Of a DNA stretch of 32,343 nucleotides, positions 17,411 to 30,192 are shown in pieces; positions within the stretch are counted from its first letter, which is position 1, and each line of letters starts with the position of its first letter. The stretch is from an uncultured Bacteroidales bacterium (GTDB taxonomy: Bacteria; Bacteroidota; Bacteroidia; Bacteroidales; F082). Made by a program: the position numbers and the translations under genes. The notes below the pieces were generated by a model, which worked only from the letters and a program-made list of their open reading frames with translations, made no database searches and had not been told where the DNA came from. The DNA is taken from assembly GCA_900318465.1 (NCBI GenBank), contig ONKQ01000032.1:1-32343 (forward strand), read 5' to 3'.

Positions 17411-20400
17411 ATGAAAAAACTGTTTCTATCCTTAATTATGCTTGCCGCCGTTCTTTTCGCGCAAGCTCAAACCATCGAGCAAACCTATCATTTCGGCCAG
17501 CCTACCGTCAGCGAGCGCGATGGTTACCAGCAAATTGGCTTCCAAGGTTGCCTGCCCAACGGCATCGTGGGCGAACCTACACTACCTTGGCAAAGTATAA
17601 GCTTGCTGCTGCCACAAGGCCAAGAAGCAACTGCTATCAACGTGGAGTTTGCTGATTTTGTGGAACTTGAAGGCAATTTTAACCTTTATCCCGCTCAGAA
17701 GCCTCGCCCGATTTCGAGCGAAGAGGAGATTCCTTTTGCCAAAAACAAAAATCTTTATCGTTCCGCAGAGGTTTATCCCTCAAGGAATCACAGCAATGTC
17801 AACACGCAATACCTGAACGGTGTAGCCTTTGCCTTTAGTGGTTTCACGCCCTTGCGCTATGTGCCTGCCACGGGCAAGGTCAGCTATGCGCAAACGGTGA
17901 CGGTCACGATTGAGACAACGACAAGTCGCGACGACCATAGTCGCAAACTCTGGCTCACGCCCGAAAACGAGGCTTCCGTCAAGCGCTTGGCGCAAAATCC
18001 CAATGTGTTAGGCACTTACAACAAACGCGGTCGCGAAATCGGCGGCTACGACATGCTCATCATCACGGCTGAGGAATGGATTCCGAGTTTCGGCGAATAC
18101 ATGAACCTTTACAACGACAAGGGCATCCGCACCCGCATCGTGGCTTTGGAGAACATTTACGCTTCGATGGAAGGCGTTGACCATCAGGAGCAAATCCGCA
18201 ATTATATCATTCAGGAATACGAGGAAAACGGCATCTCTATGGTCAGCCTCGGCGGTGACGTGAGCATCGTGCCTTACCGCAGCCTCTATTGCTGGGCGCA
18301 GGAAGGCGAGGAAGACCAACTGCCCGCCGACATGTATTATGCCTGCCTTGACGGCACCCTCAACGACGATGGCGACGACCGCTGGGGCGAAGTGGGCGAA
18401 GACGACCTGCTGCCTGAAATCGGCATCGGGCGACTGCCTTTCAACAACGAGGCGCAGTTTGCAACCATCATGCACAAGACTTTCAGCTACTTGCAGAACC
18501 CCGTTTTGGGCGAGTTCACCTCACCCATCCTCGGCGCGGAGCATCTTGGCGATGGTTATTACGGTGATATTGACATGGAACGCCTCATCGGACAAAACGA
18601 CGACTACGACTACACAACATACGGATACCCAGAAAATTACAATTTCAAGCGTTACTACGCCACCCCACAACACGATTTCAGAGGAAGCGAGTTCCGCAAC
18701 GTGATTGGCACGGGCGGACAGTATGTGCACCATGTGGGTCACGCCAACGACGACTTTGTGGCGGGTTGGTACGGCAGCAGCATGGGCAACAGCTTCTTCT
18801 CGGGCAACGATGGCATCAACCACAACTACATGCTGTTCCACTCGCACGGTTGCATTTGCGGAAACTTCCCAGTCAGTTGCGTCCTTGAGAAGATGGTCAC
18901 CATTGAGACCGGTTTCGTAGTGACCACGGGCAACTCGCGCTACGGCTGGTATATGCCTTGGGGCGACGGCATGGCAGCACACATCCACCGTGAGTTTATC
19001 GATGCCTATTGCCACGACCACATTCCTTCAGTCGGCATGGCTTTGCGCGAGGGCAAGATTGCCACTGCACCTTGGGTCTCCATCCCGTATGATGAAAACC
19101 ACGAGGAAAACGGTTGCCTGCGTTGGAACATCTACTGTCTCAATGTGTTGGGCGATGCGGCCTTGTGTCCTTGGTTCGAGGAGCCGTTCAATCCGAATGT
19201 GGTTTATGAACAGGGTCTAAAGGTCGGAACGACTTCTACCACCGTGCATGTCAGCCATTTCGACACGCCTTTGGACAATTTCCGCGTTAGCTTGTATGAT
19301 GGCGAGACTTTGTTGGGCTTTGGCATTACAGACGAAAACGGCGACGTCGAATTGGGTTTTGAGCCTCTTGAAACCGTTGGTGCTTTGCGCCTCATCGTCA
19401 CGGGACAGAGCGCATGGCCGCAGACTTTAGAAGTCTTTGGTTTCGAGAGCGGCGAACCTTTCGTTTACGGCGACATCCTCAACCTCAGTGGAGAGGCCGA
19501 ATATGGCACCAACCGTTTCGTCAGCATGGATCTTTACAACAAAGGCGATGTGAGCGCACACAATGTCCATGCCGAGGTAAGCACCGATTGTGAGTATATC
19601 GACGTCATCCCCAGCAATTTCATCATCGCTGAACTTGCGGCCAACAGCACCGAGCATTTTGAGCAAGGCGGATTTATAAAAATTGCCAACAACATCCCCG
19701 ACCAAACCATTTTCACCCTGAATCTCACCACATACATCGATGAAACTCAGCAACATACCACCCAAAAGTCCTTCTATGCATTGGCACCCAACCTGCAATT
19801 TGCTGAAATAGAGGTGGATGACAGCCAAGGCGACCAAAACGGGTTCATCGACCAAGGCGAACTTATCACCTTGAAAATTCTTGGCGCAAACATCGGTCAT
19901 GCCCTTGCACCCCAAGCCTATCTGAAAGCCACCTGCGACGACGAGCGCATCCACATTATCGACAACACCGTACAAATCGGAAATGTTGACCGTGATGGCA
20001 ATTTTGATGTAGATTTGAGCTTTACGAGCGACGACGACATCATTGGAGGCACGATTTTCCACATCAACCTTGAGCTGCATACGGGTGCCTACACTACCGT
20101 GTTCGACTACAGCTTCTCCATCGGCGTGGCCGTTGAGACCTTCGAAAGCGGCGACTTCAGCTTTGTGGAATGGGAACACGCCGGCGACCAGCATTGGTTC
20201 GTCACCGACGAAGAGGCTCACAGCGGCACCTATAGCGCACGTAGCGGCGAGATTGGCGACGACGAAGTCTCCTATTTGTTGATCTACGCCGACATCCTTC
20301 ACGACGGTGAAATCAGCTTCTGGTTCAAGACTTCGACAGAAAACCGCAAGGACCTCTTTGCCTTCTTCATGGACGGCCACAAGAAAGACTGGTGGTCGGG

Positions 20401-20794
20401 CGAAAACGACTGGACCTTTGCAAGTTACGATTTCGAGGCCGGCAGCCATGTCTTCCAATGGATTTACGACAAGAACAGCAACGGACAGTCGGGCAGCGAC
20501 TGCGCCTGGATCGACGACATCACCTTCCCGCGCACCTGTGTCATCACCGAGGTTGAGGAAACCGTCGTCAAGAAAGGCAACAGCCTCTACCCCAACCCCA
20601 CCACAGGCCGCTTCACCATCGAGCTTAAAGAAGAGAGCAACATCTGTATTTTCAACATTTTAGGACAAGTAATGCATTTGGAAAGAGCATCAGGAATCCA
20701 TCAGATCAGCCTTGAAAACGCGCCCAAGGGATTGTATTTCGTGCAGATTCAGGGCGAAAACAGCACTGAGGTCAAGAAGCTTATCGTTGAATAA
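17411..20794 (+). CDS. Gingipain-like C25 cysteine peptidase with T9SS C-terminal domain
   Basis: This 1127-residue protein has a signal peptide (1-20) and an N-terminal prodomain (about 21-200; LPNGIVGEPTLPWQSISLLL). The C25 caspase-like catalytic domain covers about 210-580. The His/Cys pair is visible: H444 in HHVGHAND and C481 in HSHGCICGNF, matching the CxxGxF pattern of gingipains with a 37-residue gap. Beta-sandwich segments follow (about 620-880), then a MAM/jelly-roll-like region (about 905-1040; VETFESGDFSFVEWEHAGD). A T9SS sorting domain ends the protein (LYPNPTTGRF, later KGLYFVQI and KKLIVE). Known homologues are secreted extracellular proteases. Whether it cuts after Arg or Lys cannot be told. 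Confidence 0.93.
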   Translation: MKKLFLSLIMLAAVLFAQAQTIEQTYHFGQPTVSERDGYQQIGFQGCLPNGIVGEPTLPWQSISLLLPQGQEATAINVEFADFVELEGNFNLYPAQKPRPISSEEEIPFAKNKNLYRSAEVYPSRNHSNVNTQYLNGVAFAFSGFTPLRYVPATGKVSYAQTVTVTIETTTSRDDHSRKLWLTPENEASVKRLAQNPNVLGTYNKRGREIGGYDMLIITAEEWIPSFGEYMNLYNDKGIRTRIVALENIYASMEGVDHQEQIRNYIIQEYEENGISMVSLGGDVSIVPYRSLYCWAQEGEEDQLPADMYYACLDGTLNDDGDDRWGEVGEDDLLPEIGIGRLPFNNEAQFATIMHKTFSYLQNPVLGEFTSPILGAEHLGDGYYGDIDMERLIGQNDDYDYTTYGYPENYNFKRYYATPQHDFRGSEFRNVIGTGGQYVHHVGHANDDFVAGWYGSSMGNSFFSGNDGINHNYMLFHSHGCICGNFPVSCVLEKMVTIETGFVVTTGNSRYGWYMPWGDGMAAHIHREFIDAYCHDHIPSVGMALREGKIATAPWVSIPYDENHEENGCLRWNIYCLNVLGDAALCPWFEEPFNPNVVYEQGLKVGTTSTTVHVSHFDTPLDNFRVSLYDGETLLGFGITDENGDVELGFEPLETVGALRLIVTGQSAWPQTLEVFGFESGEPFVYGDILNLSGEAEYGTNRFVSMDLYNKGDVSAHNVHAEVSTDCEYIDVIPSNFIIAELAANSTEHFEQGGFIKIANNIPDQTIFTLNLTTYIDETQQHTTQKSFYALAPNLQFAEIEVDDSQGDQNGFIDQGELITLKILGANIGHALAPQAYLKATCDDERIHIIDNTVQIGNVDRDGNFDVDLSFTSDDDIIGGTIFHINLELHTGAYTTVFDYSFSIGVAVETFESGDFSFVEWEHAGDQHWFVTDEEAHSGTYSARSGEIGDDEVSYLLIYADILHDGEISFWFKTSTENRKDLFAFFMDGHKKDWWSGENDWTFASYDFEAGSHVFQWIYDKNSNGQSGSDCAWIDDITFPRTCVITEVEETVVKKGNSLYPNPTTGRFTIELKEESNICIFNILGQVMHLERASGIHQISLENAPKGLYFVQIQGENSTEVKKLIVE

Positions 20795-21760: not shown

Positions 21761-21783
21761 AGATTTTTTCAAAACATACGAGC

Positions 21784-21811
21784 AAAAAAGCGAAACAAAT
21801 CTCACTTTTTT
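21784..21811 (-). terminator. Terminator of the cobalamin operon
   Basis: On the minus strand AAAAAAGTGA pairs with TCGCTTTTTT (one wobble) across an 8-nt loop, ending in six Ts. It begins 7 bp after the stop codon of the BtuF-like gene. Confidence 0.72.
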
Positions 21812-21817
21812 ACAAGT

Positions 21818-23083
21818 TTACTCGCTCATCAAATGGTAATATTTAGGCTGATAATCAGACCATTCATCGGTAAGGAGTTCGGGGTGGAAGAAATGGATAA
21901 AGTCGGCCAAGAGCAAATCAGGCTCGCACTGTGACTGCTCGAAATAACCCGTTTTCAAGATGTCGCAGACTATGATTTGGTGTTTCTTGTAGGCATCGAA
22001 AAGCGGATAGACGGGGTTCTCCTTCGCCAAAGTCGAGTAGGTCATAGGCGTAGGCGCAGAATTGATAACCCGCCAATATTCAGCCTTTTGCGCTTTTGCC
22101 AAAATGCTTTCGGCATCCATCGGGACGCTGGCCGTTGAGGGATTGTCTTTCCAAATGTAGTCCGCACCGGCATCGGCGAACAGCTTGGCGATATAACTCT
22201 GTCCGCCAGCCACGTACCACTGCCCGTTGAAGGCCAAATCGGAAAATACCGTCGGGCGATGCTCCACATTAGCGCATAGCGTTGAAAGGGCATTGTAACG
22301 CCTTTCAATGTCGACAAACCAAGCGTCGGCTTTGTCCTCGCAGCCCGCCAACATGCCGATGATACGAATCCATTCGGCGCGACCCAAAGGCGTGTTTTCC
22401 ATGTAGTCCGCAAAGGGGAACAGCACAGCTCCCGTGACGTTCAGGCCGCCTTGGTTGCCGTCGAAATAAGGCGAATAGAGCAAGGCATCAGGCTGCAGTT
22501 GAATCATCCGCTCAATGTCGGCGGCAGCCTCCGTACCAATGTCGTAAACCTTTTGCTGCGCCAATAATGAACGCATGGTCGAATCAGTTACGAAACGGCC
22601 TTCGAGTATGCCTTTCACACGGTCGATTTCTCCAAGACGCAGAAAAACAGCCCATTGCGTGGCCGAAAACGAAATCACCGACTTGACAGGAACGTTCAAA
22701 ACGCCTTTGACATCCTTGTCAACCATTTTGGTCGTATCTTTGATGATGGCAAACGAACCTAACGAAAGGGTCGTGTCCCAAGGGCAAATCACTTCCATGC
22801 GATAGCCATAGTCTTTCTCGAAAGCCAAAATGTTTCGGGCATGGCGCATTAGGTTGTCGCCTTGCGTCCTTTCGGGAGAATGACTACTTTTTGGAACACA
22901 AGCCGTAAATGCAAAAAACACTACTGCACACAAAACGTGCAAAGTAAGGGGCAAATTTGCACGCAGAAATCGCAGAACCCGCAGAAACCAACCGGCAGCC
23001 AAATTTGTGTCGCTTTGCGCTTCCCATAATTCAGCGTATTCTGCGTGAGACAAATTATAGGCGTAAGGCATATTATTTTCCAT
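21818..23083 (-). CDS. BtuF-like periplasmic corrinoid-binding lipoprotein (ABC transporter substrate-binding, PF01497 type)
   Basis: Last gene of the riboswitch-controlled operon. The body (residues about 75-421) has the class III binding-protein plan: VKSVISFSATQWAVFLRLGE, then VYDIGTEAAADIERMIQLQP with DALLYSPYF, a long linker helix, and a second lobe starting FSDLAFNGQWYVAGG with LFADAGADYIWKDN. The family delivers cobalamin or iron chelates to an inner-membrane ABC importer; the riboswitch favours cobalamin. A lipoprotein signal (VLCAVVFFAFTAC, C62) sits unusually far from the ATG at 23083, which overlaps the CWC gene by 11 bp. The first about 45 residues are encoded by repeat-like DNA, so a later TTG start (near residues 44 or 48) is possible. 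Confidence 0.82.
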   Translation of the reverse strand: MENNMPYAYNLSHAEYAELWEAQSDTNLAAGWFLRVLRFLRANLPLTLHVLCAVVFFAFTACVPKSSHSPERTQGDNLMRHARNILAFEKDYGYRMEVICPWDTTLSLGSFAIIKDTTKMVDKDVKGVLNVPVKSVISFSATQWAVFLRLGEIDRVKGILEGRFVTDSTMRSLLAQQKVYDIGTEAAADIERMIQLQPDALLYSPYFDGNQGGLNVTGAVLFPFADYMENTPLGRAEWIRIIGMLAGCEDKADAWFVDIERRYNALSTLCANVEHRPTVFSDLAFNGQWYVAGGQSYIAKLFADAGADYIWKDNPSTASVPMDAESILAKAQKAEYWRVINSAPTPMTYSTLAKENPVYPLFDAYKKHQIIVCDILKTGYFEQSQCEPDLLLADFIHFFHPELLTDEWSDYQPKYYHLMSE

Positions 23084-23237
23084 TGATTTCCTCCAAGCAG
23101 TCTTTACACAGACAGTCGCTGTAACTCGCTTTCAAATAGGCTTTTGTGGTGTCGGCGAGTTTCACTTTCACGCACCAACAATCCACGGAATGGACGCACT
23201 CGAATGTTTTTCCGCAACGGGGACAGGTTTTTGTCAT
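23073..23237 (-). CDS. Small cysteine-rich CWC-type protein
   Basis: This 54-residue protein runs from the ATG at 23237 (MTKTCPRCGKTFEC). It has eight cysteines: C5, C8, C14, C20, C22, C42, C44 and C47, in CPRCG, VDCWC and DCLCKDC contexts. This matches the cysteine-rich CWC family, which presumably binds zinc. An upstream in-frame ATG at 23336 is rejected because that segment is encoded by palindromic and low-complexity DNA. Its role is unknown. It overlaps the BtuF-like start by 11 bp, so translation is probably coupled. Confidence 0.75.
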   Translation of the reverse strand: MTKTCPRCGKTFECVHSVDCWCVKVKLADTTKAYLKASYSDCLCKDCLEEINGK

Positions 23238-23252
23238 TTGTTTAATTGTTGA

Positions 23253-23274
23253 TTGTTGAATTGTTGAATTGTTG
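23253..23274. repeat. TTGTTGAAT direct repeat
   Basis: TTGTTGAATTGTTGAATTGT and two further bases form three near-copies of a 9-bp unit. It is the same unit as the cluster at 2007-2100. Confidence 0.5.
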
Positions 23275-23286
23275 GGATTCGCAGAA

Positions 23287-23340
23287 AGTTCAAGCGGATT
23301 TTGCCATCCGCCCGAACTAAGTTGGGGATTTGCCATCCCC
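23287..23340. repeat. Two REP-like palindromes inside the cobalamin operon
   Basis: The first is nested: AGTTC (23287-23291) pairs with GAACT (23314-23318) and GCGGAT (23294-23299) pairs with ATCCGC (23306-23311). The second has GGGGAT (23324-23329) with ATCCCC (23335-23340). Both loops contain TTGCC. They lie in the 118-bp gap between the BtuG-like and CWC genes; neither is followed by a T-run on the minus strand. Confidence 0.6.
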
Positions 23341-23355
23341 TCAAAAGAATATCAA

Positions 23356-24453
23356 TTATTTAAACAACATTGCATTAGGAATGATGCCTGCCACAAACGA
23401 ACTGAGCAACACGCCATCATTGGAATAACGATAGACCGTGCCATTGACCATATAGTCCTTGACATCGGCAACATATAGCTCACCCGTCGAAGGCTCGACG
23501 GCGATATTATAGAACAAACCTTGTGGCTCAGCTGTGATGCGGAACGACTCGGAAAGGCTCATAGTAGCCAGGTCGAAACGACGCACCTCATTGTTGTAGA
23601 TGAGATACAGTCCATCGCCCGATGGATTGGATTTCAGAATGGAGGCAGTACCCTCAAACTCAAGGCGTTTCGTAGCGGTCTTCAGCTGAGGATCAATTTC
23701 CCAAAGCGAAGGACTTTCGCCATAGCCGACATCCCACGAGCGACCCTCACACAGCACCCATACATGGCCGTTCTTGTCAACAGCCAAGCCGTTAGGCTCC
23801 TTCCCCACCTCGATTTCAGCCACCTTCACGTCATTGTTGAGGTCAACGACCTGAACCGTGTTGTAGCTGTCGTGCGAATTGGCGTCGATGTAGTAATAAG
23901 ACCAGTTGCTGACATACAACTCATTGCCAACCTGCACCATCTTTTCAGTGGTTTTTCCCATCTCAACGGTGCCAGTATGCGTCATGGTCTGTGGGTTGAT
24001 AATCCAAAGATTGGTGCCAATCAAGTCGCTTACGTATGCCTTGTCGGGAGCCACAAAATGCATCTCGCGCGGCGAATAGAAATCGCCAATCTTGTAAGGT
24101 TTCGTGAGGTCACAAACCTGCGTGTTGGCGTCTATCTTATAGATATTGTTGCTGTTATTGACCACAATATACAAATTGTTGTCCACCAAGCTAAGGCTTT
24201 GGGCCACGTCGCCGATAGGAATATTATTGGCCTTGTAGAATAAATGATTGAACACCGTATCCGCCTCGGGGTCATAGAAACTCAGCGAGGCATTGGAAAA
24301 CTGATAGTTGCCTTCATTAAGGACATACACGCCTTTAAGATTCACGGGCTGTATCGTGTCGGAAGGATCGACGGGAACAGGCTGCGGATTGGGCTTGCAT
24401 GAGAACAACATTGTTGCAACAAAGGCCAGCAGAAACAAGTGTCTTCTTTTCAT
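23356..24453 (-). CDS. BtuG-like beta-propeller surface lipoprotein (YncE/DUF5074 type)
   Basis: This 365-residue protein has a lipoprotein signal (MKRRHLFLLAFVATMLFSC, C19) and a seven-bladed propeller body with repeated YVTN-like strands: GVYVLNEGNYQFSNASLSFY (about 41-60), SLSLVDNNLYIVVNNSNNIY (about 85-104), AYVSDLIGTNLWIINPQT, KMVQVGNELYVSNWSYYY, EPNGLAVDKNGHVWVLCEG and NIAVEPSTGELYVADVKDY. Bacteroides BtuG is a surface propeller lipoprotein that binds cobalamin very tightly and passes it to BtuB. This protein has the same architecture and lies in a cobalamin-riboswitch operon, so a BtuG role is the best inference. No BtuB gene is adjacent. Confidence 0.78.
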   Translation of the reverse strand: MKRRHLFLLAFVATMLFSCKPNPQPVPVDPSDTIQPVNLKGVYVLNEGNYQFSNASLSFYDPEADTVFNHLFYKANNIPIGDVAQSLSLVDNNLYIVVNNSNNIYKIDANTQVCDLTKPYKIGDFYSPREMHFVAPDKAYVSDLIGTNLWIINPQTMTHTGTVEMGKTTEKMVQVGNELYVSNWSYYYIDANSHDSYNTVQVVDLNNDVKVAEIEVGKEPNGLAVDKNGHVWVLCEGRSWDVGYGESPSLWEIDPQLKTATKRLEFEGTASILKSNPSGDGLYLIYNNEVRRFDLATMSLSESFRITAEPQGLFYNIAVEPSTGELYVADVKDYMVNGTVYRYSNDGVLLSSFVAGIIPNAMLFK

Positions 24454-24466
24454 TGGTAATCGTATT

Positions 24467-25429
24467 TTATTGTTTCACAACGCGTTTCGTAAATATCTTT
24501 CCGTCGGCAGTAACTCGAACGAAATAAATGCCTTGCGCCAGACTTCCCAAATCGAGAACGGCGTTTTCGGAAAGCATAATCTGTTGTCCGACAAGGTCAT
24601 AGACTTCAACCAATTGAAGGTTCTCTGCCTTCACCGTCAGAATGTCTTTCACGGGATTGGGATAAACTGCTATGGTTTCCATCTCGTTTTCAGGGACATC
24701 GAAATGCGCCACATCATGTATCACACCGACGGCATCCAAATCGAAGCCGCTGGAATAAAACGGTGTCGGGAACGGGTCGTTGACGATATGCCCCTCGGCG
24801 TCGTAGGTGGCATATTCTGGATCGATGGTGCCAACCACATCAATCAGGCGGACGTGCGTGATTTTGCTCTTGTCAAGAAGGGCGTTGTCCTCAACCTCAT
24901 CCAAGTCAAATGGCGTACCATAAAACACTTCGTATTTTCCGGCGAAGTTGTGGATTAACGTGGCATCCATGACACCGAAAGAGTCCATCTGCTCATCGAA
25001 AGGCACTTTGGTAATGGCGGGAAAACGGAAATAGTTCTCACCATCGGAGCTCACCTCCACGAAAGCCAATTCAAGGAAGCAATGTGGAACGTTATGGAAA
25101 GGGTTCTCAAACACGGCGAAGTCGGGGCCTCTATCGTTGCAAATCGGAGAAGCGAAAGTCAGCACAGCAGTGCCGCCGTCGCCCAAACTCACGACCCTGT
25201 TGTCGGCCTTGCCAAGCGCTGCGGCATCGACACCATAAGAGACGAGAGAGTCCGTGACACCTATTTGGATTGGCCCACGCTCAATGGTACATCCCGTGGC
25301 CCAAGCCAAAAATGCCGACGAGTCGCAATGCATGGCTGTGGTGCCGGCGACACCCGCCTCGGGCGCAAACTGAGCCCAAAGCATCGTCGGCACCAAAGCC
25401 AACATCAAAAACAAACTCTTTTTTATCAT
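24467..25429 (-). CDS. T9SS-secreted surface protein, second gene of the cobalamin operon
   Basis: This 320-residue protein has a signal peptide (1-20, ending LWAQ). The central domain (about 40-240) contains SLGDGGTAVLTFASPI (81-96), DFAVFENPFHNVPHCFLELA (103-122), FVEVSSDGENYFRFPAI (123-139) and SSGFDLDAVGVIHD (226-239). Homologues of this kind of domain are known beside corrinoid transport genes in Bacteroidota, but I cannot name the family with certainty. The last about 70 residues are a T9SS tail (IAVYPNPVKD, VEVYDLVGQQ, AQGIYFVRVTADGKIFTKRV). Its start overlaps the upstream stop by 4 bp (ATGA), showing translational coupling. Confidence 0.75.
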   Translation of the reverse strand: MIKKSLFLMLALVPTMLWAQFAPEAGVAGTTAMHCDSSAFLAWATGCTIERGPIQIGVTDSLVSYGVDAAALGKADNRVVSLGDGGTAVLTFASPICNDRGPDFAVFENPFHNVPHCFLELAFVEVSSDGENYFRFPAITKVPFDEQMDSFGVMDATLIHNFAGKYEVFYGTPFDLDEVEDNALLDKSKITHVRLIDVVGTIDPEYATYDAEGHIVNDPFPTPFYSSGFDLDAVGVIHDVAHFDVPENEMETIAVYPNPVKDILTVKAENLQLVEVYDLVGQQIMLSENAVLDLGSLAQGIYFVRVTADGKIFTKRVVKQ

Positions 25430-26685
25430 TTCACCACAAGTTTAGTGGTATGGACAACATTGTCGTTGCTCACCTTGACAAAATACACACCAGCATTCAG
25501 CATTTCGGTGCTGATGCGGACTTGTTCACCAGCCTTTGCGTCAACGCTTTGCTCGCTGACCAAACGACCTTGGATGTCGTAGACAGAGACAGTGGTCATT
25601 CCAGCGCTTTCGACAGCCAAGAATGCCTCGTTAATAGCAGGATTCGGATAAACGACCAGAGTGTTGGACTGGTTCTCGTTCACGCCCGTGTTGTCGGTGG
25701 CTGGTTCAATCGGTTGTTCCCAAGCAATGGTGGTCCAATCGGCAGACATGATACCGCAGGCATAGCCACCAATCTTTACAAAGTCGTTGTTGTGAATCGG
25801 TTCCTCTGCCATCATGTTCTGACCCATCAAACCATTCACGCTATGCATGGGAACATCATAATCAGGATCGCCCCATTGCGCATCAGGGTTGGGACACATC
25901 GTCAGGTTGTATTCGCTATCCACGTAGGTGATGTTGGTGGGAGCAGAACCGATTACCGTCAAGCGGCTATCAGCAGCAGCAATATCAGTAAGAGCTTGGA
26001 AAACAGTGGCTTCACCATTGAAACGGTAGCCCCATGCCAGAGCTGTTTCAGTGTAGCTGCACCAGCTGAGTGCAACCACGACCTCGTTTTCGCCCTCGCC
26101 AATCCAAAACAGAATCTCGTCAGCTGAAATAGTGGCATCTATAACCTCTCCACCTGCATTCGGGTCAGTAGCAGGAATAATCTCTGTAGTCCATGAAATA
26201 GTGGTCCAGTCGGCAGACATGATACAGCAGGCATAACCACCAATCTTTACAAAGTCGTTGTTGTGAATCGGTTCCTCTGACATCATGTTCTGGCCCATCA
26301 AACCATTCACGCCATGCATGGGAACATCATAATCAGGATCGCCCCACTGCGCATCAGGGTTGGGGCACATCGTCAGGTTGTAATCGTCATCCACGTAGGT
26401 GATGTTAGTCGGAGCAGAACCGATTACCGTCAAGCGGTTATCAGCAGCTGCAATATCAGTAAGAGCCTGGAAAACAGTGGCTTCACCATCGAAACGGTAG
26501 CCCCATGCCAGAGCTGTTTCTGTGTAGCTGCACCAGCTGAGTGCAACCACAACCTCATTTTCACCCTCGCCAATCCAGTATTGGATGTCGGCAGGGTCAA
26601 TAGTAGCATCTTGTTGTGCAAACAGGTTGGTCGTAAACAGACCGAAGATTCCAAGAAGGAACAATAAGGTAAAGTTTTTACGCAT
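25426..26685 (-). CDS. T9SS-secreted protein with two nearly identical about 132-residue domains, first gene after the cobalamin riboswitch
   Basis: This 419-residue protein has a signal peptide (1-24, ending LFAQ). Domain A (35-166) and domain B (192-323) differ at about 10 of 132 positions. Each contains WIGEGENEVVVALSWCSYTE, TALAWGYRF, TDIAAADNRLTVIGSAP, LTMCPNPDAQWGDPDYDVPM, GQNMM and NNDFVKIGGYAC, with conserved Cys, Trp and His residues that could contact a ligand. A T9SS tail covers 341-419 (VVYPNPAINE, VYDIQGRLV, NAGVYFVKV). The ATG at 26685 is preferred over one at 26715 because the signal peptide starts there. I do not recognise the domain family; the riboswitch suggests a corrinoid-related role. 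Confidence 0.78.
   Translation of the reverse strand: MRKNFTLLFLLGIFGLFTTNLFAQQDATIDPADIQYWIGEGENEVVVALSWCSYTETALAWGYRFDGEATVFQALTDIAAADNRLTVIGSAPTNITYVDDDYNLTMCPNPDAQWGDPDYDVPMHGVNGLMGQNMMSEEPIHNNDFVKIGGYACCIMSADWTTISWTTEIIPATDPNAGGEVIDATISADEILFWIGEGENEVVVALSWCSYTETALAWGYRFNGEATVFQALTDIAAADSRLTVIGSAPTNITYVDSEYNLTMCPNPDAQWGDPDYDVPMHSVNGLMGQNMMAEEPIHNNDFVKIGGYACGIMSADWTTIAWEQPIEPATDNTGVNENQSNTLVVYPNPAINEAFLAVESAGMTTVSVYDIQGRLVSEQSVDAKAGEQVRISTEMLNAGVYFVKVSNDNVVHTTKLVVK
25717..26583 (-). repeat. Tandem intragenic duplication, 471-bp period
   Basis: The DNA of the two domains (26188-26583 and 25717-26112) is nearly identical over about 396 bp, including long stretches without a single mismatch, such as the segment around 25775-25800 and its counterpart 471 bp further on. 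Identity at silent sites points to a recent duplication or ongoing gene conversion. Confidence 0.88.
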
Positions 26686-26803
26686 AATAGTATGATTTAA
26701 AGGTTTAACGTTCAATCAATTACAATAATGCGCTCACGGAAAACGAGGGTACACCTTAATTCTATAAGGAAAGCCAGCTCTTGTCCCGAAAGCTTTGTTT
26801 CAC

Positions 26804-26964
26804 GACAAGCGGCAGGTCTTCTGACTTACTCCTTATTATCTAACCGCCTTCCCGAAAAACCTTGGTTTTCAGTGGCATGATGGCCGACATGAAGAGTTTA
26901 CAGCAGCGGGAACTGTTCAGGATTTGCACCCGATTCCCTATTGAGCCTCGCGGCACCGCTTATC
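26804..26964 (-). promoter_or_regulatory. Cobalamin (B12) riboswitch
   Basis: Read on the minus strand, the RNA shows the class order. The P1 5' arm GATAAGCGG (26956-26964) is followed by GGTGCC, then AATAGGGAATCGGGTGCAAA, the core ACAGTTCCCGCTGCTGTAA, CCACTG, TCGGGAAGGCGG and the B12 box AAGTCAGAAGACCTGCC (26811-26827). The P1 3' arm CCGCTTGTC (26804-26812) closes the aptamer. It precedes the 419-residue gene by 118 nt. Riboswitches of this class switch off corrinoid uptake or synthesis genes when adenosyl- or other cobalamins are plentiful. Downstream, GACAAG (26780-26785) can pair with the CTTGTC of the P1 3' arm, a plausible expression platform. Confidence 0.95.
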
Positions 26965-26969
26965 GGCTG

Positions 26970-26977
26970 CAAAGATA
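26970..26977 (-). promoter_or_regulatory. -7 promoter box (TATCTTTG) of the cobalamin operon
   Basis: The minus strand reads GCTATCTTTGCAGCC, ending 6 bp before the riboswitch P1 stem, so the transcript begins essentially with the aptamer. Confidence 0.7.
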
Positions 26978-27020
26978 GCGGTTTTTCTTGTCGGTTATGC
27001 GCAAAACGAGAAAAAGTTTG

Positions 27021-27028
27021 TAACTTTG
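27021..27028 (+). promoter_or_regulatory. -7 promoter box (TAACTTTG) of the InlB-repeat gene
   Basis: TAACTTTGCCAC lies 23 bp before the ATG at 27052. It is divergent to the riboswitch promoter, with 43 bp between the boxes, so their -33 regions overlap. Confidence 0.65.
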
Positions 27029-27051
27029 CCACGCAAACGAAACTTTCAAAT

Positions 27052-30000
27052 ATGAAAAAGATAGCTTCACTCCTTACCTTATTAATAATGTGCCTTGGAG
27101 CAGCCTTTGCACAAGACGAGCCCATGCATGGCTGGCACACCTATTGCGGCAGCGATTTCAACAATGCCATTGGAGGGCCTGTCCCTTTCATCATCGCGAC
27201 GTGCTATCCTCCCGACATGGCCAGCAATTTTGCAGGTACGGCCATCACCAAGGTAGCCATATTCAGCGACAGCCTTTACAACGCCGTGGGGGGCACTTAT
27301 ACCTGTTCCATCTACTTGGGAGGAGAAACCCCTTCAGAGGGATTGTTCGTTTACTCTATGACTTGTGATGTTCCCCAAGGCCTCAACGACTGGGCAGAGT
27401 TCGAGATTTCCACTCCCATTTGGGTTACAGGAGATGTATCTATCTGGATAGTATGGCAAACCGAACAGCAACTGACCGCTTTCCCGATAGGCGTTTGCGG
27501 CGAAAACGACCCCAGTGGCAATGGGCACTGGTGGTGGACTGGTTTGAATGGGTGGGGGCACTCGGATTATGGCGACTGGACTGTGAAGACCTTCTTCGAC
27601 TGGGACGGACCGCAAATCCAAGCCCAAGATGTTTATGTTTCAGGCAACCATTTTACCACAGGCAAAGTCTTGAAAAACAATACGCTGTTATATAGCATCA
27701 CCGACAGCATCGATATTCAGTTGAAAGGCATCCAAGTAGCGGAAGACGGGACGGTTTACGGAGCTGGATATGCTTACAATAGTTCAGATGTTCATGGCTG
27801 CGTTTGGATGAACGACTCGTGCATATTCACAGCCGACACCAACACCTATTTCGACCACATCGCCCTCAATGGCAACGATTGGACAGTGGCTGGCGGCAAC
27901 AACGTATGGCAAAACGGCGAACTCCTTTATTCCTACAGCCACGAAGACGATGAGTGCCACATTCACAGTTTGGCTGTTGACACAACGATGGGCGACATTT
28001 ATGCAGGCGGTGTGATCTACCTCTCTGGCGAATACCTTGCGTATGCCAGCGTTTGGAAAAACGACTCGCTCCTTTGGATGGAAGATACCGTTTCGAGCGT
28101 CGAAAACATCTGCTTTGATGGCGGGAACCTCTATGCGGCGGGGTTCAAGGTTGCAAACGATTCCCTTTCATACGGTGTCATCTGGCAAAACGACTCCATC
28201 ATCTACCAAATGGAAAACGCCAACTTTGTGAACATTGCCGAATTTGAAGGCAGCCTCTATTGGACAGGGATTTCCCTGACAGATACCGTTGTTTATATTT
28301 GGCAAGACGGCGAGGTTTTATACGCCTTACCCGAACTTTCTGGAATCAGCAACTTGGTCGTCAACGAAAGCGGAGTGTATTATACCGATGCACAAACGGT
28401 TTATAAAGACGGCGAAGTCCTGTATCAGCCCGAAGAGTTCATCATCATCACCGACCTCGTCGTGAAGCCTGCCCCACCTCAACCGACATTCACTCTCACA
28501 CTCGAATCCGATAACCCCGATTGGGGCACCGTCATCGGCGGCGGCGAATATCACTATGGCGACACCGCCACCATTGAGGCCATCCCCAATGTCGGCCACG
28601 AGTTCCTGATGTGGAACGACAGCATCACCGACAACCCGCGAAATATTATTGTCACACAAGACAGCACTTTCATCGCTTCGTTTGGCCGAATTGAATACAC
28701 CATCAGCGTCGTGAGCGAGAACCCCGACTGGGGCAGCGTTAGCGGCGGTGGCACCTTCTATTATGGCGACACCACTGAGATTTCGGCCACGCCTTTCGTT
28801 GGCTATGTGTTTTCGAGATGGACAGACCAAAACACCGACAACCCTCGCACCATAGTTGTCACTGAAAACCGTGTCTACAGTGCCATCTTCACAAGGCAAA
28901 CTTGCACCATCGCCACCGGAGTTGCCCCTGAAGGCGCAGGCAGCGTGACTGGCGGCGGCACCCATTATTACGGCGACACCATCACTTTGACCGCCCACAA
29001 CAACCCAGGATATGAGTTCATCAAATGGGACGACGGCATTAGTGACAACCCAAGAGAAGTCGTCGTTGAAGGCGATGCGGCCTACAAAGCCGTCTTCAGC
29101 CTCTTGCAATACGAAATCACCACGGCCAGCGACCCCGTTGAAGGCGGAACCGTGACCGGAGGCGGAATTTACGACTATGGCAGCACGGCCACCCTGACGG
29201 CCACTGCCAACCCGGGTTACATTTTCCTCCGTTGGAACGATGGCGGCGGCTCCAATCCGCGCCACATCACCGTGACGGGCAACGCAAGTTATACTGCAAC
29301 GTTTTACCAGAGCGGCACACCGACCTACACAATTACCGTCCTGTCAAACAATATCCTGCTCGGCAGTGTTAGTGGCGGCGGCGAATATCTCGAAGGCACC
29401 ATCATCGAAATCAGTGCGACACCTTCACCCCATTCCGTTTTCACTGGCTGGGACGACGGCAACACCGACAACCCGCGCAGCATCACAGTCACGCAAGACA
29501 TGACCTTAACGGCCATTTTCGAGGCCGCACAAGAGACTTACGAAATCATTGTCGAGAGCAACAATCTGCTTTTGGGCAACGTTTATGGTGGAGGCACCTA
29601 TGCGGCCAACGCCTCCATTACCATCGGTGCCGTTCCTAACAATGGCGTCTACTTCACTGGCTGGCAAGATGGCAACACCGACAATCCACGCAACATCATC
29701 GTGATAGGCGATGCCACTTATACAGCCTATTTCGCGCCAGAGCCTGTACAGACCTATACCATCACCGTGCAATACGATGAAAATCAAGGCTATGTGATGG
29801 GAGGAGGCAACTATGTGGCTGGCAGCACTGCGACCTTGGCTGCCATCGCCAACGACAATTATTACTTCGTGAAATGGGGCGACGACAACACAGACAATCC
29901 ACGAACCATACTCGTCGACCAAGACATTACTTTGGCAGCTTTCTTCAATGGCACGGGCGTGGACGAAAACGACGGCACAGCGATACACCTCTACCCCAAT

Positions 30001-30192
30001 CCCGCCAACGACAAGATACGCCTTGAGGGACTTGAAAGAGATACAGAAATCAGCATTTACAATTCGTTTGGCATCTGCGTCAAAACGCTGACCATCAATG
30101 GTGAAAACGAAGTTTCGGTCAACGATTTGGCGGCTGGACTTTATCTTATCCGCATCGATGGCCACCAAACCGTGAAATTCGTGAAGCGTTAA
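27052..30192 (+). CDS. Large T9SS-secreted protein: carbohydrate-binding-like N-domain, propeller-like repeats and seven InlB-B-like repeats
   Basis: This 1046-residue protein has a signal peptide (1-20). An N-terminal beta-sandwich follows (about 25-185). About 195-460 holds six copies of a short motif (VWMNDSCIF, VWQNGELLY, VWKNDSLLW, IWQNDSIIY, IWQDGEVLY, VYKDGEVLY), suggesting propeller-like blades. About 480-965 holds seven repeats of about 70 residues, each with G-(S/T/N)-V-x-GGG, a (Y/F)-x-x-W and DNPR-x-I-x-V pattern, as in divergent InlB B-repeats. A T9SS tail ends it (HLYPNPANDK, AAGLYLIRIDG). Such repeats are structural stalks of adhesins. The ATG at 27052 is chosen over 26941, which would run through the riboswitch DNA. 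The flippase follows after 6 nt. Confidence 0.87.
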   Translation: MKKIASLLTLLIMCLGAAFAQDEPMHGWHTYCGSDFNNAIGGPVPFIIATCYPPDMASNFAGTAITKVAIFSDSLYNAVGGTYTCSIYLGGETPSEGLFVYSMTCDVPQGLNDWAEFEISTPIWVTGDVSIWIVWQTEQQLTAFPIGVCGENDPSGNGHWWWTGLNGWGHSDYGDWTVKTFFDWDGPQIQAQDVYVSGNHFTTGKVLKNNTLLYSITDSIDIQLKGIQVAEDGTVYGAGYAYNSSDVHGCVWMNDSCIFTADTNTYFDHIALNGNDWTVAGGNNVWQNGELLYSYSHEDDECHIHSLAVDTTMGDIYAGGVIYLSGEYLAYASVWKNDSLLWMEDTVSSVENICFDGGNLYAAGFKVANDSLSYGVIWQNDSIIYQMENANFVNIAEFEGSLYWTGISLTDTVVYIWQDGEVLYALPELSGISNLVVNESGVYYTDAQTVYKDGEVLYQPEEFIIITDLVVKPAPPQPTFTLTLESDNPDWGTVIGGGEYHYGDTATIEAIPNVGHEFLMWNDSITDNPRNIIVTQDSTFIASFGRIEYTISVVSENPDWGSVSGGGTFYYGDTTEISATPFVGYVFSRWTDQNTDNPRTIVVTENRVYSAIFTRQTCTIATGVAPEGAGSVTGGGTHYYGDTITLTAHNNPGYEFIKWDDGISDNPREVVVEGDAAYKAVFSLLQYEITTASDPVEGGTVTGGGIYDYGSTATLTATANPGYIFLRWNDGGGSNPRHITVTGNASYTATFYQSGTPTYTITVLSNNILLGSVSGGGEYLEGTIIEISATPSPHSVFTGWDDGNTDNPRSITVTQDMTLTAIFEAAQETYEIIVESNNLLLGNVYGGGTYAANASITIGAVPNNGVYFTGWQDGNTDNPRNIIVIGDATYTAYFAPEPVQTYTITVQYDENQGYVMGGGNYVAGSTATLAAIANDNYYFVKWGDDNTDNPRTILVDQDITLAAFFNGTGVDENDGTAIHLYPNPANDKIRLEGLERDTEISIYNSFGICVKTLTINGENEVSVNDLAAGLYLIRIDGHQTVKFVKR

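Follow-up and report, generated by a model that had tools for sequence, protein, structure and literature searches.

Two genes for proteins with sorting tails of the type IX secretion system (T9SS) stand directly behind a cobalamin riboswitch in an uncultured Bacteroidales bacterium of family F082, ahead of genes of the BtuG and BtuF types, and the locus raises the question of what such exported proteins do in B12 uptake. The locus occupies positions 21782-26977 of the window, by which we mean the whole analysed stretch of 32,343 nucleotides (contig ONKQ01000032.1, assembly GCA_900318465.1), and the two genes, here termed open reading frames ORF1 and ORF2, lie on the minus strand. A sequence-only reading had taken their products for corrinoid-capture proteins, a prediction that our analysis supported at the level of sequence comparison through ties of both families to cobalamin riboswitches and to BtuB, BtuG and BtuH, and through their remote kinship to B12-binding folds. 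We consider it probable (about 0.74) that the operon encodes a B12-repressed, T9SS-exported corrinoid capture set that feeds BtuG and BtuB. The features on which this argument turns are as follows.

26794-26975, minus strand: cobalamin riboswitch aptamer RF00174 (covariance model positions 1-189, 115.1 bits, E 2e-28)
25426-26685, minus strand: ORF1, 419 aa from ATG, with a signal peptide (by eye), two transcobalamin-beta-like (DUF4430-like) repeats and a T9SS type A sorting domain
26176-26610, minus strand: ORF1 repeat 1, residues 26-170
25705-26139, minus strand: ORF1 repeat 2, residues 183-327
25432-25653, minus strand: T9SS type A C-terminal sorting domain of ORF1, residues 345-418 (PF18962, 52.5 bits)
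24467-25429, minus strand: ORF2, 320 aa, with a distant BtuH-type domain and a T9SS type A sorting domain
24701-25351, minus strand: BtuH-like domain of ORF2 (from alignments and a PDB profile search)

The aptamer, already recognized in the sequence-only reading, scored far above the gathering threshold of 31.5 bits. The T9SS nature of the two leading proteins, also claimed there, was borne out by TIGR04183, which matched ORF1 and ORF2 with 55.5 and 54.0 bits against a curated cut-off of 23.

Both leading families are linked to cobalamin riboswitches

In a sample of 295 genomes of the order, an ORF1 profile matched 34 genomes, one of which was the source genome itself, and RF00174 was sought in the other 33. 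A riboswitch lay within 7.5 kb upstream on the same strand in 35/38 non-self ORF1-type matches, compared with an expectation of 0.15/38 from riboswitch number and genome size. The 38 matches corresponded to 37 genes, because one gene of genome G511 was counted twice, and to 35 operons, because in genomes G403 and G502 a single riboswitch precedes two of the genes; counted by operon, a riboswitch was present upstream in 32/35. As for the misses, no riboswitch was found in G371 and G474, and that of G570 was 23 kb away. A match to the BtuH-type domain of ORF2 was located within 5 kb in at least 23 of the 38 cases, among the matches listed.

The association recurred in further samples. A family sample of 201 genomes around G230, a genome already known from the order sample, had ORF1-type matches in only eight, and all seven new loci had a riboswitch upstream on the same strand; relatives of BtuB, BtuG or BtuH were present in six of these seven locus maps, L264 being the exception. 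A phylum sample showed a riboswitch in 5/6 non-self ORF1-type loci, one of the five being G230 again. When genome contigs were scanned with the ORF1 family, the 80 best of 329 relatives were retained, and all of them came from Flavobacterium, Chryseobacterium and their kin; a BtuH relative was found in all of these 80 locus stretches and a TonB receptor relative in 78, and each of the seven that were checked with Rfam had a riboswitch upstream. Because many of these genomes are kin, the ORF1-type locus counts do not represent independent events.

For ORF2, a phylum sample of 296 genomes gave matches of the domain in 29, one of them the source genome, leaving 28 loci. The fetched stretch contained a cobalamin riboswitch in 17/28, two of them at only 35 and 37 bits, and a BtuG-type gene was near the match in 22/28 (phmmer with the window BtuG, E up to 1e-3). 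Neither a riboswitch nor a BtuG-type gene was found in the stretch around the match at L057, L058 and L070. In those representatives of these loci that were scanned, Pfam confirmed TonB receptors. Counting homologues behind cobalamin riboswitches and beside corrinoid genes, the check named in the sequence-only reading, tied both families to the riboswitch (35/38 for the ORF1 type, 17/28 for the ORF2 type) and to BtuB, BtuG and BtuH genes.

Predicted transcobalamin-like fold of the ORF1 family

ORF1 consisted of a tandem of two near-identical units of about 150 residues, offset by 157 residues, on which the sequence-only reading had been silent. The two repeats shared 85% identity over the aligned stretches, and the ratio of nonsynonymous to synonymous substitution rates (dN/dS) between them was 0.30, a value consistent with constraint. 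The repeats of same-genus orthologues looked far more divergent than the pair in the window, suggesting that the window's repeats were duplicated or homogenised recently. Searches of the PDB with the ORF1 and ORF2 sequences returned the sorting domain only, with no credible relative of the remaining domains; an ORF1 profile gave nothing useful there (the best matches were a phage protein, E 0.013, and BolA, E 0.39), and a second ORF1 profile gave no match.

The structure of the domain was modelled on a Weeksellaceae relative (locus L164), using an alignment with 40 further rows that comprised the two window repeats and 38 other loci of the 80. The model had a predicted local distance difference test score (pLDDT) of 89.1 and a predicted template modelling score (pTM) of 0.88, and showed two strands, a helix at residues 46-56 and then the hairpin strands 60-68 and 71-79. 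A hairpin right behind a helix is described as the mark of the transcobalamin-like clade of the SLBB superfamily (PMC1796856). In a Foldseek search of the PDB with this model, ranks 1 to 9 were all transcobalamin or intrinsic factor chains, and transcobalamin, intrinsic factor or haptocorrin made up 16 of the first 19 matches. The best target was 5no0, an isolated human beta domain (TM score 0.69 by target length, probability 0.98, root-mean-square deviation 5.6). Against a viral structure library, the best probability was 0.06 among the best 50 of 94 rows, a weak control because viruses may simply lack this fold.

Family profiles gave evidence of the same kind. The same-genus ORF1 orthologues at L225, L226 and L227 all passed the cut-off of 23.8 bits for PF14478 (DUF4430), with scores of 73.2, 47.6 and 30.0 bits among the three, L226 and L227 being near-copies in the first repeat; this family is reported to sit at the C-terminus of transcobalamins (PMC4350170). 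Among ten ORF1-type proteins scanned with Pfam, five showed PF14478, three of them above the cut-off. The window ORF1 aligned along its length with the L227 orthologue at 40% identity, and a profile of ORF1 proteins from the window's genus matched the modelled L164 group with E 4e-32. DUF4430 was found in 7/198 genomes of the order; in two of these, G395 and G414, the matches lay within ORF1-type proteins, while four further loci adjoined cobU, cobT, ATR, cobQ or BtuG-type genes (by eye) and a fifth, in G325, was near a weak BtuH-type match. A profile of the DUF4430 proteins of the order retrieved nothing useful from the PDB. On this evidence we assign the ORF1 family to the transcobalamin-like group with fair confidence; with less confidence, we regard corrinoid binding by the window's own two copies as somewhat more likely than not.

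Single-domain DUF4430 proteins of the order were seen at L248, L250, L251 and L252 beside cobU, cobT, ATR, cobQ or BtuG-type genes (by eye). These are likely to represent a predicted corrinoid-salvage binding protein, which was not described in the papers found.

A distant BtuH-type domain in ORF2

An iterated profile of the ORF2 family reached five BtuH-type proteins with E-values of 1e-23 to 1e-33, and one of these five matched 8blw (E 1e-67) and 7biz (E 2e-45). A family profile built without those five proteins reached 8blw, the BtuH domain of BtuG1, with E 3.1e-6 and 7biz, BtuH2, with E 0.0037; a single-sequence phmmer search with ORF2 did not reach BtuH chains. The invariant residues N83 and F85 of the ORF2 family aligned to Asn399 and Phe401 of BtuH2, the numbering being derived from a uniform offset of 100 with which three residues mentioned in the BtuH2 paper agree. 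Both residues contact the phosphate and lower base of B12 in BtuH2 (PMC8941943). These comparisons identify the ORF2 domain as a distant one of the BtuH type. No relative turned up when viral contigs were scanned with the ORF2 profile. A weak match of ORF2 to the NCBIfam lipoprotein family LIC_13355 (E 2e-4) fell short of that family's cut-off.

Variants of the module among relatives

The order riboswitch-ORF1-ORF2-BtuB was present in 8 of 20 mapped loci (L228-L235), with BtuG next after BtuB in six of the eight; in L229 and L234, the remaining two, the locus is cut off by the end of the contig. Within the window's genus, L225 showed riboswitch-ORF1-ORF2-BtuG-BtuF, its ORF1 having three repeats, and L226 and L227 showed riboswitch-ORF1-ORF2 only. 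The ORF1 and ORF2 domains were fused in one polypeptide at L236, L237 and L238, and at the flavobacterial loci L047 and L049 the ORF1 domain was joined to a T9SS-tailed propeller of the BtuG type (DUF5074). By gene content and order, the window belongs to a widespread riboswitch-ORF1-ORF2-BtuB/BtuG module, and its BtuB gene would appear to have left the operon.

Organization of the operon and its control elements

The remaining features of the operon and its borders are the following.

26970-26977, minus strand: Bacteroidetes-type -7 promoter element TATCTTTG (read from the sequence)
23356-24453, minus strand: ORF3, BtuG-like beta-propeller protein, 365 aa, with a lipoprotein signal (by eye)
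23073-23237, minus strand: ORF4, CWC cysteine-rich zinc-ribbon protein, about 54 aa (PF14375, E 1.1e-11)
21818-23083, minus strand: ORF5, BtuF-like periplasmic binding protein (PF01497, 82.4 bits)
21782-21813, minus strand: terminator-like hairpin with a T-rich tail (hairpin search)

The five genes were as tightly spaced on the minus strand as the sequence-only reading had described: ORF1 and ORF2 overlapped by 4 bp, a gap of 13 bp separated ORF2 from BtuG and one of 118 bp separated BtuG from the CWC gene, if the latter begins at the ATG at 23237, and the CWC and BtuF-like genes overlapped by 11 bp. The same reading had noted the lack of BtuB and BtuCD, and indeed no receptor, permease or ATPase gene was found among the five (21818-26685). 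Its promoter and terminator held up in part. The -7 element TATCTTTG is present, judged against TAnnTTTG, which we take to be the Bacteroidetes consensus; the closest TTTG upstream is 24 bases off, more than the usual spacing between TTTG and a -7 element, and the promoter is plausible and not more. A T-tailed hairpin was likewise found at 21782-21813, in a region with eight terminator-like sites where shuffled sequence has 6.5 on average, and this site is weak evidence when taken alone.

The BtuG-like protein matched solved BtuG chains (8bmy and others) with E 2.8e-57 and PF16819 (DUF5074) with 70.3 bits (cut-off 27.2). The BtuF-like protein was the sole PF01497 match found in the source genome, and its operon context suggests that it may be specific for B12. 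The operon is flanked on the plus strand by a gene for a C25 (gingipain-type) peptidase with a T9SS tail (17411-20794) and by one for a large protein with many similar segments, as judged by eye (26941-30192).

Receptor, permease and other riboswitches in the source genome

The source genome (G000; 3.67 Mb in 132 contigs, 98.9% complete) bore out the expectation that receptor and permease are encoded elsewhere. One relative of BtuB-type receptors was found with one BtuB-like query, on contig C30, and it matched solved BtuB-type chains with E 4.5e-63 and 1e-57. One FecCD permease gene was found, on contig C44, and an ATPase-like gene comes after it. Among solved structures the permease scored best against haem permeases and FhuB, with BtuC behind, and it may serve as the BtuC of this organism. 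SprA (TIGR04189), the sole part of the T9SS translocon searched for, was present on contig C53.

The genome contained five cobalamin riboswitches. On C53, one stood ahead of an anaerobic ribonucleotide reductase. On C21 (L006:8140-13933), the riboswitch was followed by a 1384-aa protein rich in fn3 domains and one of 537 aa whose T9SS-like tail scored just below the Pfam cut-off; neither protein matched a known corrinoid family. On C15 (L008:445-1905), a riboswitch at the start of the contig preceded an HpaB-type enzyme, and the next genes were CoA-transferase-like by eye. On C70 (L009:2087-3937), the riboswitch preceded a DUF4465 (BtuJ-type) protein with a T9SS tail and three similar segments (by eye), whose kinship to ORF1 and ORF2 in BLASTP comparisons was confined to the sorting domain.

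Proposed function and alternative explanations

In the capture set that we propose, scarcity of B12 would allow the riboswitch to permit expression of the operon, and ORF1, with its two transcobalamin-beta-like domains, and ORF2, with its BtuH-type domain, would be exported via the T9SS. On the cell surface or shed from it, they would catch corrinoids and pass them to the BtuG lid and the BtuB-like receptor from C30, after which BtuF (ORF5) would ferry the corrinoid across the periplasm to the FecCD-type permease from C44. Such a scheme resembles what is reported for Bacteroides thetaiotaomicron, in which B12 represses riboswitch-linked operons, several of the surface proteins encoded there are tight B12 binders, and uptake proceeds through BtuBG (PMC12751083, PMC10404256). 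A bolder form, in which ORF1 and ORF2 would be a bacterial counterpart of intrinsic factor, that is, a secreted pair clasping one corrinoid from two sides, shed in the manner of a siderophore and recognised by BtuG/BtuB, is speculative and rather unlikely.

Several observations weigh against a capture function. The fold evidence comes from a Weeksellaceae protein with 28-30% identity to the window repeats, the model of a window repeat itself being too poor for use (pLDDT 56), and the Foldseek E-values were weak (0.08 at best, with 0/62 at or below 0.001). PF14478 was missing in 5/10 ORF1-type proteins scanned, and the window ORF1 did not match it up to E 1. The L164-group profile did not match the DUF4430 proteins of the order, and the window-genus profile matched them with a probability of 49% (P 1.7e-4), which is only suggestive. 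The window repeats have a short insert and the motif PMHGVNG in place of the relatives' WWMYxVNG, so that the binding surface of ORF1 may have changed. As for ORF2, the residue equivalent to Gln333 of BtuH2 is not Q, and the match to BtuH spans about 100 residues, leaving the part with His476, Tyr510, Trp511 and Trp577 outside the alignment; 11/28 ORF2-type loci had no riboswitch in the fetched stretch. Moreover, as BtuK2 and BtuL of B. thetaiotaomicron show, a protein can be encoded in such an operon without binding B12 (PMC12751083).

BtuL in particular, a protein that promotes vesicle release without binding cobalamin (PMC12751083), is the precedent for supposing that ORF1 is a structural or docking protein and that capture is left to ORF2 and BtuG. 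The missing WWMY aromatics and the missing PF14478 match of the window repeats fit this idea, but B12-binding proteins ranked first for the modelled family fold, the same-genus orthologues pass the DUF4430 cut-off, and the dN/dS of 0.30 between the repeats is consistent with constraint. In addition, 5np4, in the same list of PDB matches, shows cyanocobalamin bound to a transcobalamin beta domain on its own, so a lone domain can bind. We hold a non-binding ORF1 to be unlikely. A different ligand, such as haem, cobinamide or another B12 precursor or analogue, might be suspected from the C44 permease, with its better scores against haem permeases and FhuB than against BtuC, and from the varied ligands that the SLBB superfamily may bind (PMC1796856). 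However, relatives of the module have BtuB, BtuG and BtuH in the same operon, and other DUF4430 genes of the order stand beside cobU, cobT, ATR or cobQ (by eye). The riboswitch class, furthermore, senses cobalamins, and we judge another ligand to be quite improbable. Finally, the T9SS proteins might be general surface cargo placed behind the riboswitch by an accident of this genome, which does encode other proteins with T9SS tails, for example the C25 peptidase at 17411-20794. This explanation was rejected on the riboswitch association, since the riboswitch was kept in 35/38 matches in other genomes and in 7/7 of a separate sample; it is close to refuted.

Relation to known systems and significance

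The closest known counterparts of the ORF1 domain would be the beta domains of transcobalamin, intrinsic factor and haptocorrin (PF14478, SLBB clade), which it resembles in the predicted hairpin after the helix of the family model, in orthologues above the PF14478 cut-off and in the link to B12 uptake. Unlike transcobalamin-type proteins, the ORF1 type showed no alpha/alpha-toroid partner domain in Pfam scans, and it has one to three tandem copies, a T9SS tail and partners of the BtuH and BtuG types; the window copies also lack the WWMY aromatics of their relatives. The hosts of the transcobalamin-like clade named in the available text of PMC1796856 are Gram-positives, planctomycetes, euryarchaea and animals, and not Bacteroidetes. 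ORF2 shares remote homology, the N/F residues that contact B12 in BtuH2 and the kind of operon neighbours with BtuH, a surface lipoprotein of B. thetaiotaomicron (7biz; as a domain of BtuG1, 8blw), whereas its domain has about 190 instead of about 280 residues and lacks the inserts of BtuH, no PKD domain was found in it, and a T9SS tail takes the place of the lipid anchor.

BtuJ (DUF4465) offers a further parallel as a family of B12-binding proteins in riboswitch-controlled loci, some of them with IPR026444, although the window operon has no DUF4465 protein and that of the source genome is on C70. We take IPR026444 to be the T9SS sorting domain. It is present in 229/824 DUF4465 sequences (PMC12751083), which by analogy would constitute a published precedent for T9SS delivery of B12-binding proteins. 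In the BtuBG uptake loci of Bacteroides, too, a cobalamin riboswitch precedes genes of the BtuG and BtuF types, but in the source genome the BtuB-like receptor and the permease are on other contigs. The closest publications found are a Flavobacterium psychrophilum transcriptome with a cobalamin riboswitch ahead of a TonB receptor (PMC9723704) and a paper on BAM structure that covers both BtuG and the T9SS (PMC12578637). A literature search at the level of titles, abstracts and passages, with most subscription journals outside its coverage, found no description of a riboswitch-controlled T9SS/BtuH/transcobalamin-like arrangement and no bacterial test of the 2007 prediction that bacterial transcobalamin-like domains scavenge B12 (PMC1796856).

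The ORF1 family links a transcobalamin-like domain to the B12 riboswitch in dozens of genomes and to BtuB, BtuG and BtuH, which opens the 2007 prediction to direct testing with small soluble domains. The family also suggests that Bacteroidota have a T9SS-delivered set for surface B12 capture as a counterpart to the Bacteroides lipoproteins, and it is relevant to the origin of the beta domain in the B12 carriers of animals.

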